A stretch of DNA of 6,238 nucleotides, taken from the NCBI GenBank assembly GCA_028877005.1, contig JAGWPI010000181.1, positions 1 through 6,238 of the forward strand, written 5' to 3'. Within the stretch, counting starts at the first letter, position 1, and each line of letters opens with the position of its first letter. Under the pieces are notes generated by a model. The model had not been told where the DNA came from and made no database searches. It saw only the letters and a list, made by a program, of their open reading frames with translations. The position numbers and the translations under genes were made by a program. Shown here piece after piece: positions 1-6,238 of this stretch. This stretch comes from Bacteroidota bacterium. Lineage in GTDB: Bacteria > Bacteroidota > Bacteroidia > Chitinophagales > Chitinophagaceae.

Positions 1-195
1 ACCTACATCGCAAATAATAAAATCAGGATTAGGAATAATTGGGTCATTTAATAAAGGTATTACTGTTTCTAATCCCCTTCCGGTTACAAATACTAGTTTA
101 AAGTTATTGTTTTTCCTAATAAGTCTATAAAGCTTTTGTTTGTCAATGCTTTTTCCACCTAAAAATGTTCCGTCTAAATCAGTTGCTAATATCAT
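1..195 (-). CDS. HAD-IIB family sugar-phosphate phosphatase, N-terminal part (sucrose-phosphate-phosphatase-like), cut by the window edge
   Basis: Reading down from the ATG at 195-193 gives 65 uninterrupted codons to the window edge, so the C-terminal part lies outside. The start reads MILATDLDGTFLGG, which holds HAD motif I (DxDGT, nucleophile Asp6 and acid/base Asp8). HAD motif II follows as VFVTGR (Thr38, Arg40), and then PDFIICDVG at 57-65. The order DLDGT, VTGR, PDFIIxxVG is typical of the sucrose-6-phosphate phosphatase / mannosyl-3-phosphoglycerate phosphatase branch of HAD type IIB, soluble enzymes that dephosphorylate sugar phosphates. The substrate cannot be read from this fragment. 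The cap domain and motifs III and IV are not visible. The start is 12 bp after the stop of the GpsA-type gene, so the two are very probably co-transcribed. No Shine-Dalgarno is seen. Cof-like or trehalose-phosphate phosphatase relatives remain possible. Confidence 0.85.
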   Translation of the reverse strand, partial: MILATDLDGTFLGGKSIDKQKLYRLIRKNNNFKLVFVTGRGLETVIPLLNDPIIPNPDFIICDVG

Positions 196-207
196 AGTCA
201 ATTCAGT

Positions 208-1197
208 TTATTGCAATTGTTGTTCTAATAATTTTATTTCGTGGTAAGGGTTAGCGTGAAGATGTAGCATACGATAAACACTATTAATTACAGGTATATG
301 TAATTTTAATGGTTGAATAATTGTATGCAATTCTTTTGAAGCATAATATCCTTCCGCAACCATTTCCATCATTTGTAATGCTTTACGAACCTGTATACCT
401 CTGCCAACTAATTTTCCTAAGGTTCGATTGCGGCTAAAATCAGAATATGCAGTAGTTAGTAAATCCCCAAAATAAACCGAGTCAAAATAATCTCGGTTAT
501 AGGGCGCTAATGCATTTACAATTTTTTGTATTTCACGCATAGCATTACTGGTAAGAACAGCTTTAAAATTATCGCCATATTGTAAACTATCTGCTATACC
601 ATTGGCTATGGCTACAATGTTTTTTAAGATGGCCACATATTCTACACCCAGAGGATCATTGTTAGCAATTGTTTTTATATAAGGTAGTTGTAAATTTTTT
701 TGTAGTTGATCTACCAATTCCGTTGTATTTCCTGCTATGGTTACGTAAGTGTATCTACGTTGTGCAATTTCTTCTGCATGGCAAGGACCACTTAGTACCA
801 TACAATTATGATCCAGTTCAAGCGTTTCACGGAAATAAGTTCCGGGTATTTTACCTGTTCCGGGTACAAATCCTTTAATAGAAACAAGTACCTGTTTTTG
901 CTTGAACCATTCCGGATTTAATGATTGAATGGCAGATTGAACAAAAGCAGCGGGAACGGCAAAAATAACCCAATTTACATTTCTCAGCGCTTCCTGCGCA
1001 TGTGTAGTAGGGTGTATAAAATTTATGTCTAAGTCGGCCTGACTAAGATATCGCGGGTTTCGTTTGTTTGTAACAATATATTCAGCTTGTTTTTTATTTC
1101 GAACAAGCCATGATATTGAATTACCGCTTTCTGCAAAAATTTTTACTAATGCCGTTGCCCAACTGCCACTTCCTATTACGGCAATTTTTTCGGGCAT
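208..1197 (-). CDS. gpsA: NAD(P)-dependent glycerol-3-phosphate dehydrogenase
   Basis: Cytosolic enzyme reducing dihydroxyacetone phosphate to sn-glycerol-3-phosphate, normally the entry to glycerophospholipids. The 329 aa match the family length. A Rossmann dinucleotide-binding motif GSGSWATA lies at 9-16. SIKG at 106-109 carries the conserved Lys108. SGPCHAEE at 136-143 is the GPS(F/H)AxE family motif, with Cys139 in place of the usual Ser. The helical C-terminal domain holds LKNIVAIANGIADSL (191-205) with catalytic-type Lys192, then GDNFKA (208-213), and SRNR at 255-258 before a Gly-rich LGKLVGRG. The ATG at 1197 places the Rossmann motif where the family expects it. The gene lies 139 bp after the permease stop and 12 bp before a sugar-phosphate-type HAD phosphatase. 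It may be ordinary housekeeping, or may feed glycerol-3-phosphate to a neighbouring glycosyltransferase (inference). The family assignment is secure. Confidence 0.95.
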   Translation of the reverse strand: MPEKIAVIGSGSWATALVKIFAESGNSISWLVRNKKQAEYIVTNKRNPRYLSQADLDINFIHPTTHAQEALRNVNWVIFAVPAAFVQSAIQSLNPEWFKQKQVLVSIKGFVPGTGKIPGTYFRETLELDHNCMVLSGPCHAEEIAQRRYTYVTIAGNTTELVDQLQKNLQLPYIKTIANNDPLGVEYVAILKNIVAIANGIADSLQYGDNFKAVLTSNAMREIQKIVNALAPYNRDYFDSVYFGDLLTTAYSDFSRNRTLGKLVGRGIQVRKALQMMEMVAEGYYASKELHTIIQPLKLHIPVINSVYRMLHLHANPYHEIKLLEQQLQ

Positions 1198-1336: not shown

Positions 1337-2653
1337 TTAATTAAACATACTATTTAAAATTAATACGCCAATTAATCCTAAGACAGATACAATACTTTCC
1401 ATAACTGTCCATGCTTTAAACGTTTCTTTTATGCTAACGTTAAAATATTCTTTAAACATCCAAAATCCGGGATCATTTACATGAGAAAAAAATAAACTGC
1501 CAGCACCAATAGATAATACCATAAAATTTGGATTAATACCTTGTGTTGTAATATAAGGTAATAGTATTCCGGCGGTAGTTAAACCTGCTACAGTTGAAGA
1601 TCCTACGCATAAACGAATTAACGCTGCAATTAACCAACCCAACACTAATGGGGGAATAGATGTTCCTTCTAATATATTGGCTATTTGATTACTAACACCA
1701 CTGTGTGTTAATATTTCTTTTAATGAGCCTGCTCCCCCTATAATTAGTAAAATCATTACTACATCTTTTGCCGCTTCTGCATAACGGTTCATGGTACTAC
1801 TTATAGATTCGATTTTTGGTGTTTTTAAATAAAAAGTAGCAGCTGCTAAGGCTATTAATAAAGCAATTGAGGGATTACCTATAAAACCTGATAACTGAAA
1901 TTGCCAACTATTGGCAGTATTGAAAGATTGAATTAGAGTAGCCAATCCAATAAGAATCACCGGAATAACCGGTACAAGAAAGCTAATAAATACACTCGGT
2001 AACTTTGTTGAATCAATTAATTGAATTTGAAATGCAGGTAAAGGTGTAGATATAATTTTTTTGAGTGATGATGAAAAAACAGGTCCTGCTATAATTACTG
2101 TTGGTATAGCTATTATAAGCCCATAAAAGAGGGTTAATCCCATGTTGGCATGAAATAATGCCACCAATGCTGAGGGAGATGGATGTGGAGGCAAAAATCC
2201 ATGGGTAACTGAAAGTGCTGCCAATAATGGTAAACCTGTAGCCACAGCCGGTAATTGATATCGATAAGTAATTGAAAAAATTAAAGGTACCATCAACACA
2301 AAACCTACTCCGTAAAATAATGGAATACCTACTACAAAGCCTGTAAGTGTTAATGCCCAAGTAATATGCTTTTTTCCGAAGGCCTGTACCAACGATTGTG
2401 CTATTTGTTGTGCTGCACCACTGGCAGCAACTTGTTTACCTAGCATGGCTCCTAATACAATTATGATGACTAGTGAACCCAGCATATCGCCCATTCCCTT
2501 TTCAATTGAAGTGATAATTGAATTGAGTGGTAGTTGTAAAAACAATCCCGCTAGTATACATACTACCATAAAAGCTAAGAACGTATTTATTTTAGCCCAG
2601 CTAATGAGCAAAATAAGTAATACAATAGCAATAAATACAATAAAAATAGACAT
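1337..2653 (-). CDS. GntP-family permease (gluconate:H+ symporter type)
   Basis: Polytopic inner-membrane transporter of 438 aa, about the same length as characterised GntP/GntT gluconate permeases. The N-terminus is a hydrophobic helix (MSIFIVFIAIVLLILLISWA), followed by repeated hydrophobic segments to the end. Family signatures are clear: HGFLPPHPSP at 151-160, a GGAGSLKEIL segment at 306-315, GSSTVAGLTTAGILLP at 351-366, and SHVNDPGFWMFKEYF at 390-404. GntP members take up gluconate and related sugar acids or hydroxy acids with protons. The exact substrate cannot be read from sequence, and no gluconate kinase is visible here. The start is 22 bp after the stop of the GT4 gene, which points to co-transcription. 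Glycerate, glucosylglycerate or a hexonate would each be a plausible substrate in this context (inference). No truncation or frameshift is seen. Confidence 0.94.
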   Translation of the reverse strand: MSIFIVFIAIVLLILLISWAKINTFLAFMVVCILAGLFLQLPLNSIITSIEKGMGDMLGSLVIIIVLGAMLGKQVAASGAAQQIAQSLVQAFGKKHITWALTLTGFVVGIPLFYGVGFVLMVPLIFSITYRYQLPAVATGLPLLAALSVTHGFLPPHPSPSALVALFHANMGLTLFYGLIIAIPTVIIAGPVFSSSLKKIISTPLPAFQIQLIDSTKLPSVFISFLVPVIPVILIGLATLIQSFNTANSWQFQLSGFIGNPSIALLIALAAATFYLKTPKIESISSTMNRYAEAAKDVVMILLIIGGAGSLKEILTHSGVSNQIANILEGTSIPPLVLGWLIAALIRLCVGSSTVAGLTTAGILLPYITTQGINPNFMVLSIGAGSLFFSHVNDPGFWMFKEYFNVSIKETFKAWTVMESIVSVLGLIGVLILNSMFN

Positions 2654-2675: not shown

Positions 2676-3659
2676 TTAATCCCAGGCTAAAAACTTTTCT
2701 TGTTGAATGGATAATAATTGTGGTGCTTTTGTATGGAGTTGTTGACCATTCATCACCTTTTCGTATTTTTCAATATATGCATCTGCCATTTTATCGGCAT
2801 TAAATACATCTCTTGCATATTCATGACAACGGATGCGGCTATAAGTATCACTATTCTCAATGGCCTTTGATAATTCTTGAGAACTACTGCTTAAAAAGCC
2901 TACATCCGATTGTATAATTTCGGGTAAAGATCCGTAAGGAGTTCCAAAAACCGGACAACCAAAATATAAACTTTCCGTTAAAGCAATACCAAATGGCTCG
3001 TGCCAGCGCACGGGAAATACCAATCCTTTGGATTGGGTTAATAAGCGATATTTTTCTTCGCCACCTACCATTCCATAAAAATGAATACGCGGGCTGAAAG
3101 TGAAACGAAAACCCATTCTAAAATTTAATCGATTGCCACCCAATACCATTAATTCTTCTTTTTTGGTTAACAAAATGGAATGAATAGCTCCTTTTACATT
3201 TTTTACCCGCCATGCCGCATCGCCTAAAAAATGGAACTGTTTCCTTTCATTGTTTAAATCAGGCTTTCCGTAATCTTCCCAATCCATACCGTTGTAAACA
3301 AAAGAATTGGAGCCAAAGCGTGCTGCATGATTTTTTGAAACAAACACAGTGTTTACATCTAATAGGGTAGCGTCATTTACATTACCATGCATTGTAAAAA
3401 TATATGGTTTTATAATTTTTTCGTTCGGCAACATGTTAAAGTGCACAACATCTGCACTATCCGGAATTTGTTCATTCCACGATTTTTCCGGGTTATAGTT
3501 AATAATATTGGCAAAGGATGAAGTAGAACCATTAGATACAAGAAAACTTACTTGGTGGCCTTTTTTTGTTAGTGCTTTTCCAAGATGCCAAATAACGCGT
3601 TCTATTCCACCATACTTTAGTACAGGAATTTTAGCGTTGTGTACAATTACAATATGCAT
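2676..3659 (-). CDS. GT4-family glycosyltransferase (GT-B fold, retaining), acceptor unknown
   Basis: A compact 327-aa glycosyltransferase without membrane segments. The N-terminal acceptor domain begins with a Rossmann strand and YGGIERV at 16-22, the glycine-rich loop common in GT4 enzymes, followed by GHQVSFLVS and THG-like TMHGN at 89-93. The C-terminal donor domain has FHFLGDAAWRVKNVKG (142-157), whose Arg151 and Lys156 sit where GT4 enzymes usually bind the donor diphosphate. RWHEPFGIALTE at 218-229 is the E-x7-E signature (Glu221, Glu229), and GSLPEI follows at 243-248. The acceptor is not predictable. Being short, soluble and next to a permease rather than a Wzx/Wzy set, it could glycosylate a small molecule. 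A cell-surface glycan or lipid acceptor is the alternative. It is followed at 22 bp by the GntP-type permease and preceded by a 157-bp gap that may hold a promoter. Confidence 0.92.
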   Translation of the reverse strand: MHIVIVHNAKIPVLKYGGIERVIWHLGKALTKKGHQVSFLVSNGSTSSFANIINYNPEKSWNEQIPDSADVVHFNMLPNEKIIKPYIFTMHGNVNDATLLDVNTVFVSKNHAARFGSNSFVYNGMDWEDYGKPDLNNERKQFHFLGDAAWRVKNVKGAIHSILLTKKEELMVLGGNRLNFRMGFRFTFSPRIHFYGMVGGEEKYRLLTQSKGLVFPVRWHEPFGIALTESLYFGCPVFGTPYGSLPEIIQSDVGFLSSSSQELSKAIENSDTYSRIRCHEYARDVFNADKMADAYIEKYEKVMNGQQLHTKAPQLLSIQQEKFLAWD

Positions 3660-3816
3660 ATTGTGAAAGTTAAAAGATTTAAAAGTAATGATAAAAATAT
3701 TGCCAGTTAAAAAAGGCGCTCAGAAAATAAAATAGATTTTGGCATCAAACAAAAAGTTCATTGTTTAAATGCATTAGTACTATATGCGGATTGTTGGAGA
3801 AAATTGAAACAAAAAT
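3660..3816. other. 157-bp intergenic gap before the GT4 gene
   Basis: AT-rich sequence with no open reading frame worth calling. It is long enough for a promoter for the GT4-permease pair. On the minus strand a TTTGTTTG stretch (around 3745-3755) could be part of an upstream element, but no TAnnTTTG lies at the usual distance. A short GCC/GGC pairing around a T-rich loop (3700-3718) is too small to call a terminator. Confidence 0.3.
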
Positions 3817-4542
3817 TTATTGAATCAGTTTATACAATGTAAAGATGCCGGTTAATAAAATTAAAATAAGTACTATTTTTTTAAACTGTTTTTCAGAAAC
3901 ATGTTGTAAAATAATTTTGCCTGCATAAGTACCTATTATACTGATTACAAGTAATAAGGGTATTAAATATAAGTCGTGTTGGTGTACAAATCCATTTTGC
4001 CAATATACAATACTTCTAGAAGCATCAATACCAAGGTCAACCACGGCAGAGGTGGCAATAAACACATTGGTATTTAGTTGGAAAGCACTGAAAACTAATG
4101 CTCTAATTGCACCTCCTGTTCCTACTATACCTGCAATAAAACCAGATAATGTACCCCCACTTATAGCGTTTATTTTAGTGGGATTAATTGTAACATCATT
4201 AAACCACAAAAAGAATATGCTGGTTATCATTAAGAAAACAGATAATGCAACTTCTAAAGTATGGCTGTTAATATATTTTGTTAACCATGCACCTAACACT
4301 ACAAAAAGTACAGCAGGTATACCCAGATAAATCAATAGCATAGTATTGATTCCTTTTCTGAAAAAGGCAATTTTAGTTAGATTACTTGAAACGTGGAATA
4401 AAGCTGTAATGCCTAAAACAGATTCGAAGTCTAAAAAATAAGTAGCTATTGGAACAAAAAATAACGAAGAACCAAAACCACCAACTGTTCCGGCAATTTC
4501 AGCTATAAGTGCCAATGTTAAAAACAAAAATAAATTATCCAA
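3817..4542 (-). CDS. TauE/SafE-family transmembrane transporter, TTG start
   Basis: A 241-aa polytopic inner-membrane protein. The two-fold repeat of the TauE/SafE (COG0730-type) family is visible. The first half carries a small-residue motif, AGTVGGFGSSLFFVP, at 17-31. The second half carries the matching SGFIAGIVGTGGAIRALVFSAF at 133-154. Hydrophobic segments fill the rest, with a short basic stretch near 217-222 before the last helix. Family members move sulfite, sulfoacetate or other small organic anions, usually outward; the substrate here is unknown. The start codon is TTG at 4542-4540 (TTG GAT AAT). An in-frame TAA lies two codons upstream, and the first internal ATG codes for residue 68, too far in to be the start, so a non-ATG start is forced. 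The gene lies 82 bp after the GT81-HAD fusion and 157 bp before the GT4 gene. Confidence 0.9.
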   Translation of the reverse strand: MDNLFLFLTLALIAEIAGTVGGFGSSLFFVPIATYFLDFESVLGITALFHVSSNLTKIAFFRKGINTMLLIYLGIPAVLFVVLGAWLTKYINSHTLEVALSVFLMITSIFFLWFNDVTINPTKINAISGGTLSGFIAGIVGTGGAIRALVFSAFQLNTNVFIATSAVVDLGIDASRSIVYWQNGFVHQHDLYLIPLLLVISIIGTYAGKIILQHVSEKQFKKIVLILILLTGIFTLYKLIQ

Positions 4543-4563
4543 AATTTAAATATTTTTTAACGC

Positions 4564-4611
4564 CTACATTAAGTTTAAAACTATAAAGGCAATAATAATT
4601 TAATGATGTAG
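4564..4611 (-). repeat. Imperfect inverted repeat between the GT81-HAD fusion and the TauE/SafE gene
   Basis: On the plus strand CTACATTAA (4564-4572) faces TTAATGATGTAG (4600-4611). The arms are complementary apart from a three-base bulge. In minus-strand RNA this could make a weak, AT-rich hairpin 13 nt after the fusion stop, with no clean GC core and no U-tract directly after the stem. It may be a weak attenuator, an RNA-processing or stability element, or chance in AT-rich DNA. The rest of this 82-bp gap shows nothing recognisable. Confidence 0.25.
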
Positions 4612-4624
4612 TAAATTTTATCTG

Positions 4625-6004
4625 TTATTTGGCTACTTTTAGTAAATCTTCAAACATTTTATTGGTAATAATAATATCTGCATGGTGGTTAACTAATTCG
4701 TCTTTTGAGCAAAAAGCCACACCCATGCCGGCTTCTTTAATCATGCATAAATCATTTAAACTGTTACCTACAGCAATTGTATTTTCTCGTTTAATTTGGT
4801 GTTTTTCTAAAATTGCCAGCATAGCATTTGTTTTGCATATGGTATGTTTACATAAGCTGTTTTTTTGACTAAACCAAAATGATGGAATTTTCACTTCGCC
4901 GGTACAGATGCTTTTGGAAAATTCTAACTCATTGCCCAACGAAAAGTGCATACCTAATTGATGTTTAATATGGTTTGAGATGCAATCAAAACTTTCGGAT
5001 ATAATACCAATCAGGTATCCACGTGTTTTTAATTCTGCTATTATTGTTATAGCATCTTCTACAATTGGAATTTCATCGGCAATTTGTATCAATTCTGCAA
5101 TTGATTTTCCCTTGAGCAAATTGGCCATTTTTTTGGTCAGTATTATTGGGTCGGGTTCTTTTGCCCGAATATCCATCAGTTCTTTTTTTAAATGAAACTT
5201 TGTGGCAAAAGCCTCTATAAAACTGCCTTTCAGTAAAGTATTATCCATATCAAATAAAATTAGTTTCTTATTTTCAGGAATATATTCTGTTAAGGCAAAC
5301 TCCATTTGAGAGCGTATTTCATTCATTACTGAAAGTTCTTCTAAATTATAATGTGCATTTTTTGTATTGGCTGCTTTTATAATAATAGTTTGTGCTACCT
5401 CTTTACTCATTTTACCTAATGCATGCCAAGGCTTACTTTTGTTTTCAATGTAACCAATTTCAACTTCTTTCATCCTAACGTGCATGAGGTACATATCTAT
5501 TAAAATACCTATGTCTACACCATAATCATCCCTAAAATCTATTTGTTGAAACAGTGTTTTTTTTCCGGCAATCATGCCGCTTAGCGGTTGACTAAAGCGC
5601 ATTAAATCGGGAAAAAAAATACTTAATAAGGGTTTAGCCACCAGCTCAGTAACTCTGCCGGCATTTCTGTTAAAAGATGATTTTACAAAATCAACTTCAT
5701 TTTGAATAATGGGCTGTGCCAATAATGCGATGGTGAAATGTGGATATGGATCTATATCGCCGTCTAAAAATAAAACAATTTCATTTTTGGAATATAAAAC
5801 GCCATCTTTCATAGAAGCACCCTTACCTAATTTGGTACTGGTAATTACTTTAGCCCCAGACTTTTTTGCCAATGCAACTGTATTGTCTGTAGATTGATCA
5901 TCTACTACAATTACTTCTGTTACCAAAGGATCTGAATAGGCAAATTTTACTACAGCTGTAATATGTTCTGCTTCATTTAATGTAGGAATGATAACTGTAA
6001 CCAT
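4625..6004 (-). CDS. Fused GpgS-like (GT81) glucosyl-3-phosphoglycerate synthase and SerB-like HAD phosphatase; probable bifunctional glucosylglycerate synthase
   Basis: A 459-aa two-domain cytosolic enzyme. Residues 1 to about 212 form a GT-A domain: VTVIIPTLNEAEH (2-14), VIVVDDQSTDNT (31-42), GKGASMKDG (60-68), and a metal/nucleotide-binding D81-G-D83. GRVTELVAKPLL (116-127), FFPDLMRFSQPLSG (130-143), DYGVDIGILID (160-170) and a C-terminal His194 in KPWHALGKMS follow the layout of glucosyl-3-phosphoglycerate synthases, where the Gly-Arg-Val-Thr stretch contacts 3-phosphoglycerate and Asp and His hold the metal. After a linker (about 213-246), the rest is a HAD type IB phosphatase like SerB: motif I FDMDNTLL with Asp252 and Asp254, motif II Ser336 in GIISES, NELEF (358-362), motif III Lys391 and motif IV VGNSLNDLCM (412-421). 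In motif IV the usual first Asp is Asn414. The pairing suggests NDP-glucose plus 3-phosphoglycerate to glucosyl-3-phosphoglycerate, then dephosphorylation to glucosylglycerate. Mannosylglycerate is the main alternative. The frame is open throughout, so this is a real fusion. The ATG at 6004 directly precedes the first strand. Confidence 0.85.
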   Translation of the reverse strand: MVTVIIPTLNEAEHITAVVKFAYSDPLVTEVIVVDDQSTDNTVALAKKSGAKVITSTKLGKGASMKDGVLYSKNEIVLFLDGDIDPYPHFTIALLAQPIIQNEVDFVKSSFNRNAGRVTELVAKPLLSIFFPDLMRFSQPLSGMIAGKKTLFQQIDFRDDYGVDIGILIDMYLMHVRMKEVEIGYIENKSKPWHALGKMSKEVAQTIIIKAANTKNAHYNLEELSVMNEIRSQMEFALTEYIPENKKLILFDMDNTLLKGSFIEAFATKFHLKKELMDIRAKEPDPIILTKKMANLLKGKSIAELIQIADEIPIVEDAITIIAELKTRGYLIGIISESFDCISNHIKHQLGMHFSLGNELEFSKSICTGEVKIPSFWFSQKNSLCKHTICKTNAMLAILEKHQIKRENTIAVGNSLNDLCMIKEAGMGVAFCSKDELVNHHADIIITNKMFEDLLKVAK

Positions 6005-6128
6005 ATGTAATTGTTTTAAAAGAGGGATGCTGTTGTTGGGTTTTGCCCTAATTGGATAGCTTGAAAGGTAGTTATTAAAAATTAATTAATTTCATTAAAA
6101 AAACAAAAAAGTGTTGCATATGGTATAT
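6005..6128 (-). promoter_or_regulatory. Leader and probable promoter region of the GT81-HAD unit
   Basis: This 124-bp stretch lies between the terminator and the start of the fusion gene, so a promoter for the minus-strand unit is expected here. The best Bacteroidota-like -7 candidate is TACCTTTC on the minus strand (6070-6063), one base off the TAnnTTTG consensus. I see no well-spaced -33 TTTG partner, although T-tracts with a TTTTTTG lie further upstream near 6100-6110. No Shine-Dalgarno precedes the ATG; the bases before it are TTTTAAAACAATTACAT. No coding potential is seen. Confidence 0.35.
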
Positions 6129-6163
6129 AAAAAAGCCCTCAGTTAACTAACCGAAGGCTTTTT
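6129..6163 (-). terminator. Rho-independent terminator for the gene entering from the right edge
   Basis: In the minus-strand transcript this forms a continuous stem of about 15 base pairs: AAAAAGCCUUCGGUU pairs with AACUGAGGGCUUUUU around an AGUU loop, and six U in total close the right arm before AUAUACC. Two pairs (6138/6155 and 6141/6152) are G-U wobbles on the minus-strand RNA. In a plus-strand RNA the same positions would be C-A and A-C mismatches, so the hairpin is better suited to minus-strand transcription. It starts 20 nt after the TAG stop at 6184 and separates that gene from the transcription unit that begins with the GT81-HAD fusion. Confidence 0.85.
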
Positions 6164-6183
6164 GCAAATGTGTTTGGTTACTT

Positions 6184-6238
6184 CTATAAGTACTTGTCTC
6201 CTTTGTTTCTTTTTATTTCGGCCACATATTCTTTAATG
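6184..6238 (-). CDS. C-terminal end of an unidentified gene entering from the right edge
   Basis: On the minus strand the last 54 bases read 17 sense codons (IKEYVAEIKRNKGDKYL) and a TAG stop at 6186-6184, with one spare base at the window edge. The tail is charged and lysine-rich, like many bacterial C-termini. An intrinsic terminator 20 nt downstream supports this being the true end of a gene. The product cannot be identified from so short a fragment. Confidence 0.6.
   Translation of the reverse strand, partial: IKEYVAEIKRNKGDKYL

Follow-up and report, generated by a model that had tools for sequence, protein, structure and literature searches.

A candidate one-protein hexosylglycerate pathway: a GT81-type synthase fused to an HAD-IB phosphatase in a Hydrotalea-like bacterium

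The fusion gene

The window (the whole 6,238-nucleotide stretch of contig JAGWPI010000181.1 that was analysed) comes from a Hydrotalea-like bacterium and carries a gene in which a sugar transferase resembling glucosyl-3-phosphoglycerate synthase (GpgS, family GT81) runs in one open frame into an HAD-IB phosphatase resembling the phosphoserine phosphatase SerB. It appears probable, at roughly 60 per cent, that the product is a one-protein hexosylglycerate pathway, in which GT81-type synthesis from 3-phosphoglycerate would be followed by HAD-IB dephosphorylation. The gene and its parts are as follows.

4625..6004, minus strand: GT81-type synthase/HAD-IB phosphatase fusion gene, 459 amino acids, ATG start, no internal stops
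5282..6004, minus strand: synthase domain, residues 1-241, GpgS/MpgS fold
5645..5659, minus strand: acceptor loop Gly-Arg-Val-Thr-Glu, residues 116-120, placed by family conservation and by its GpgS counterparts (passages of PMC2581804)
5441..5443, minus strand: residue 188 (Asn), at the GpgS metal-site position in the family alignment
5276..5356, minus strand: low-confidence linker, residues 217-243 (predicted confidence score, pLDDT, below 50 at 216-244)
4628..5275, minus strand: phosphatase domain, residues 244-459, SerB fold (HAD-IB)
5243..5251, minus strand: HAD motif I, Asp252-Met-Asp254 (D252 in 278/282 relatives)
4832..4852, minus strand: insert Cys385-x-His387-x2-Cys390 and motif III Lys391, by residue conservation in 282 relatives
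4763..4765, minus strand: Asn414, at the Mg-binding Asp of motif IV in the family alignment

The initial annotation had described a single frame with two domains, and this was borne out: profile search finds two domains in the 459-residue protein, both complete, matching GpgS and SerB profiles. The frame is a genuine gene, neither a chance frame nor an assembly join, because, of 8000 candidates scored, 3401 reach E <= 1e-20 against it (though part of these may cover one half only), and the 120 matches listed, from which identity and length were taken and the first of which is the window's own protein, nearly all span the full length, with 68-85% identity. A pseudogene or chimeric assembly is ruled out by this conservation and by the ratios of nonsynonymous to synonymous divergence (dN/dS) given below, which are rough because dS is near saturation. 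Over positions 3600-6238 promoter-like sites numbered 8 where 12.8 were expected, and terminator-like sites 2 where 1.3 were expected, with no usable promoter or terminator at the fusion, and Rfam gave no match at gathering score across the window.

Synthase half

The GpgS profile NF010496 scores 169.5 bits over residues 2-225, and the second-ranked glycosyltransferase in the same profile list, AglJ, scores 75.2. When the predicted model was compared with known structures, the glycosyltransferases listed were GpgS, MpgS and mannosylglycerate synthase. By profile and by modelled fold, then, the best match of the synthase half is to GpgS/MpgS and not to other GT2-like families, as the initial annotation had supposed. 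That the domain might be an ordinary GT2-type transferase with an added phosphatase, its substrate being polyprenyl phosphate or a glycan, is scarcely credible: the half does take 71.4 bits from Pfam Glycos_transf_2 and weaker matches from AglJ and dolichol-phosphate enzyme profiles, but the profile ranks, the fold and an acceptor loop conserved throughout the family rule out the polyprenyl version.

Conservation was counted over 282 relatives, namely proteins of 440-530 amino acids from P0002-P0120 (118) and P0209-P0328 (117) together with 47 loci, with residue counts giving up to five residue types per group. The locus survey took in 47 of 48 chosen loci (L047, with a longer overlapping frame, was left out), and L004 and L006 were excluded as apparently the same DNA as L099 and L100. 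Arg117 and Thr119, the residues named in the initial annotation, both lie in the acceptor loop: R117 and V118 occur in 282/282 relatives and T119 in 281/282, while D81 and D83 are each present in 281/282. In GpgS, according to passages of PMC2581804, the counterpart residues Val186, through its main chain, and Thr187, through its side chain, bind the carboxylate of 3-phosphoglycerate.

Phosphatase half

SerB is the best HAD profile and, in the predicted model, the best HAD fold for the C-terminal half (TIGR00338, 109 bits over residues 244-457). The proposal that the partner is HAD-IB and not HAD-IIB is upheld by the subfamily profiles, with TIGR01488 at 70.9 bits against a cut-off of 45 and TIGR01484 at 28.7 bits against 41.8. 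The catalytic residues are conserved across the family (D252 in 278/282, K391 in 280/282, D418 in 281/282), and the window copy keeps Asp252, Asp254, Ser336, Lys391 and Asp418.

The substrate-binding pair of phosphoserine phosphatase (PSP) is replaced. In passages of PMC6321591, Glu20 and Arg56 of PSP bind the amino and carboxylate groups of phosphoserine; a HMMER alignment to the Methanocaldococcus enzyme places Ser261 and Met293 at these positions in the window. Across the family the Glu20 site holds Glu in 0/282 and Arg in 265/282, and the Arg56 site holds Ile, Val, Leu, Met or Thr in the 280/282 residues listed. Both PSP residues are kept in all six aligned Bacteroidota SerB-like rows, which were assigned to SerB by similarity and not by profile and represent six of 12 chosen loci (L033-L036, L057 and L066 were left out). 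The Cys-x-His-x2-Cys insert before the motif III Lys, with His387 in 275/282 relatives and Cys390 in 276/282, is absent from all six. In the two omitted loci L057 and L066, longer proteins begin with a SerB-like HAD domain that has Glu and Arg at like places when judged by eye; L066 continues, also by eye, into D-3-phosphoglycerate dehydrogenase and would thus be a serine-pathway fusion.

These replacements bear on the suggestion that the HAD half is simply the cell's phosphoserine phosphatase, joined to a sugar transferase that draws on the same 3-phosphoglycerate pool. The SerB rank of profile and fold, the frequency of the SerB name among relatives in databases, and the finding of a separate SerB above cut-off in 0/14 genomes searched all favour it. 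However, no other strong SerB hit occurs in 5/6 fusion genomes and in 7/8 non-fusion genomes (in the exceptions, G190 and G269, a SerB-like domain is joined to other serine-pathway-like parts), so the lack of SerB does not track the fusion. With Glu20 and Arg56 replaced and no such link, the serine reading was set aside as very improbable.

Distribution and descent

The fusion is not confined to one lineage: matches occur in Bacteroidota and in bins labelled as planctomycete or acidobacterial. A draw of genomes across the phylum matched both halves in 6/296, the window's own genome included, and a draw within the family gave matches at E <= 1e-60 in 44/147 genomes and 33/100 genera, with one genome (G331) matched over residues 189-456 only. 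When the most distant copy served as query, 1456 of the 7995 proteins scored reached E <= 1e-30, and the organism names given among the 120 matches listed, all of metagenome bins, are Thermoanaerobaculia, Pirellulales, Planctomycetales, Riflebacteria, Planctomycetaceae and Gemmataceae. Searched alone, the HAD half gave 89 matches; because 88 are at least 41% identical and many come from contigs only a few kb long, these look like cut fusions, and some on long contigs may be separate genes.

For 98 proteins, the distances between pairs measured on one half correlate at 0.94 with those measured on the other, and the tree of each half separates both a distant clade and a group with degenerate HAD residues, which suggests that the halves behave as one evolutionary unit. 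The trees were built with FastTree and no outgroup, with a long-branch warning for the HAD tree; they do not fix the date of the fusion or establish a single origin.

Proposed pathway

In the proposed pathway the GT81-type domain would attach a hexose, likely glucose and possibly mannose, to 3-phosphoglycerate, with a nucleotide sugar as donor; dephosphorylation by the HAD-IB domain would follow, giving glucosylglycerate (or mannosylglycerate). The intermediate may be handed over between the two sites, and the end product would likely be a stress solute, perhaps salt-induced, protecting against salt or other stress.

A number of observations weigh against this pathway. Both halves miss their equivalog cut-offs (262 for NF010496 and 144.15 for TIGR00338), and the synthase half is therefore called GpgS-type and not a GpgS equivalog. 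At the site equivalent to His258, which lies close to the metal site of GpgS in passages of PMC2581804, Asn188 is found in 164/165 near relatives and loci and His in 117/117 distant relatives; the window protein differs from GpgS at the metal-site His, and Asn188 argues, on the alignment, against simple equivalence. A separate GpgS-like protein in another member of the Bacteroidota (L048) scores 392.8 bits on NF010496, above the cut-off, and only Hydrotalea-type loci preserve the window's gene order. In motif IV, where most relatives have G-D, the window reads G-N-S-L-N-D, placing Asn414 at the first Asp, the counterpart of the Mg-binding Asp167 of PSP (passages of PMC6321591); with Ser261, this copy differs at two sites from the Asp and Arg of most relatives. 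Finally, 6/47 loci (L133-L138) form a related subfamily of 487-519 amino acids that keeps the glycosyltransferase loop but lacks several of the HAD catalytic residues, so that not every relative depends on the phosphatase. Most of these have a C-terminal hydrophobic stretch resembling a membrane anchor, and genome G302 holds one intact copy (L105) beside one degenerate copy (L137).

It is thus conceivable, and rather improbable, that the protein of this lineage is a synthase only, with a weak or structural HAD half and another phosphatase to complete the step. Asn414, which the window copy shares with L099 and P0004-P0006, the Ser261 that replaces Arg, and the losses in L133-L138 would all suit such a case; the retention of motif I, Ser336, Lys391 and Asp418 does not. 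Among four Hydrotalea-type copies, moreover, dN/dS is 0.047-0.106 for the HAD half (5 of 6 pairs) and 0.038-0.054 for the glycosyltransferase half (6 pairs), rough ratios given dS near saturation and with 2 of 18 values not computable, and the HAD half is accordingly under purifying selection despite Asn414. On balance the initial interpretation is partly supported: most HAD motif residues are present, with Asn at the first Asp of motif IV, and the GT81/GpgS identity stands on best profile, fold and loop and fails on equivalog cut-off and metal-site His.

Gene neighbourhood

The fusion is the first of six co-directional genes on the minus strand, followed in order of transcription by:

3817..4542, minus strand: TauE/SafE-family membrane protein (PF01925)
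2676..3659, minus strand: GT4-type glycosyltransferase (PF00534)
1337..2653, minus strand: GntP-family permease (TIGR00791, 471.3 bits, cut-off 292.75)
208..1197, minus strand: gpsA, glycerol-3-phosphate dehydrogenase (PF07479, PF01210; NF000940, 203.5 bits, cut-off 202)
1..195, minus strand: opening 65 codons of a ggpPS-type gene (glucosylglycerol-phosphate phosphatase/synthase) that runs off the contig edge, by match to an H. flava protein

The 65 codons agree at all but one residue with the N-terminus of a 742-amino-acid H. flava protein with a sucrose-phosphatase-like HAD domain and a GT20 domain (TIGR02398, 657.4 bits against a cut-off of 569), a layout reported for Marinobacter and others in passages of PMC10873239. 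The apparent remainder of the gene (651.6 bits) lies at the end of contig C4, which belongs to the same genome as the window. The gpsA product may supply glycerol 3-phosphate to this second synthase-phosphatase fusion. The idea that GgpPS marks the fusion in general was rejected, since 7/59 relatives are above cut-off and several fusion genomes are not, and no link is claimed.

The sugar may be mannose, yielding mannosylglycerate from GDP-mannose, or the adjoining GT4 may add mannose to give mannosylglucosylglycerate. In L004-L006 the gene immediately upstream of the fusion is ManC-like (L004 was scanned), but the L004 protein reaches 299.2 bits on its best profile, below the cut-off of 372.95, and other sugars also depend on ManC. 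ManC had no match in the window's own genome, which is incomplete, so that the empty result shows little; outside Hydrotalea neither a ManC-like nor a GT4 gene neighbours the fusion regularly, and the GT4 is closest, among solved chains, to tetrahydrobiopterin glucosyltransferases and others. The mannose alternatives are considered unlikely.

The 47 loci are not independent, because most belong to one family. A universal stress protein gene directly follows the fusion on the same strand in 19, and sensor kinases and response regulators lie within four genes in five loci each. Other neighbours include DUF389 (five loci), a ClC channel (four loci) and, in single loci each, NhaP-, NhaD- and Na/Ca-exchanger-like genes. 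DUF389 membrane proteins adjoin the fusion in unrelated loci (L043, 6827-8101; L045, 10439-11740).

A wider reading, held tentatively at a little short of even odds, is that a SerB-type phosphatase gave up its phosphoserine pocket, acquired Arg for Glu20 and the Cys-His-Cys insert, and turned into a new class of hexosyl-3-phosphoglycerate phosphatase tied to a GT81 synthase. The outcome would be a one-protein sugar-glycerate pathway that arose independently and is present in Bacteroidota and in lineages labelled planctomycete or acidobacterial. With its mirror-order glucosylglycerol fusion, the Hydrotalea locus might then make two glucosylated three-carbon solutes, one perhaps extended by the GT4 to mannosylglucosylglycerate.

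Significance

If the pathway is correct, sugar-glycerate solutes would extend far into Bacteroidota, the dephosphorylation step would gain a further kind of phosphatase, and a single gene could produce a sugar-glycerate solute in a host. The change at the SerB pair and the Asn/His split at residue 188 would offer a handle on how substrate choice shifted. Database names for the relatives vary among phosphoserine phosphatase SerB, glucosyl-3-phosphoglycerate synthase and HAD-IB family phosphatase, and metabolic models of these genomes may therefore be wrong on serine and osmolytes. A GpgS-HAD-IB fusion is absent from the titles and abstracts searched and from passages of PMC11009771, PMC11046441, PMC4555173, PMC3694870 and PMC13342039, which is weak evidence of novelty since the subscription literature lies mostly outside that search.

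Comparison with known systems

Other Bacteroidota offer the separate counterpart of the fusion. In 5/5 loci (L048-L052) a GpgS-like gene is followed by an HAD gene, as the domains are in the window; unlike the window fusion, the genes are separate and the HAD protein is REG-2-like (HAD-IA), below the cut-off of the REG-2 model (GpgS profiles were run on one locus, HAD profiles on three). An M20-type peptidase-like gene precedes the GpgS-like gene in all five. GgpPS, whose gene starts in the same window, is likewise a two-step glucoside osmolyte enzyme in one protein, but has HAD-IIB first and GT20 second, with glycerol 3-phosphate as acceptor.

The synthase half resembles mycobacterial GpgS (GT81) and Rubrobacter MpgS in fold, DxD motif and the Arg/Val/Thr of the acceptor loop. 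It differs in lacking a 14-residue insert before that loop, in the Asn at the metal-site His, in the attached phosphatase and in its sub-cut-off profile score. The phosphatase half shares the fold and catalytic motifs of SerB (HAD-IB), and departs from it in the replaced Glu20/Arg56 pair and in the insert before the motif III Lys.

MgsD of Dehalococcoides combines GT55 with HAD-IIB, whereas the window fusion combines a GpgS-type domain with HAD-IB, and the missed HAD-IIB cut-off indicates accordingly that the phosphatase partner differs from that of MgsD. The architecture itself has a known precedent in that enzyme, described in passages of PMC8490865, which like the window fusion joins a sugar-glycerate synthase and a phosphatase in one protein.
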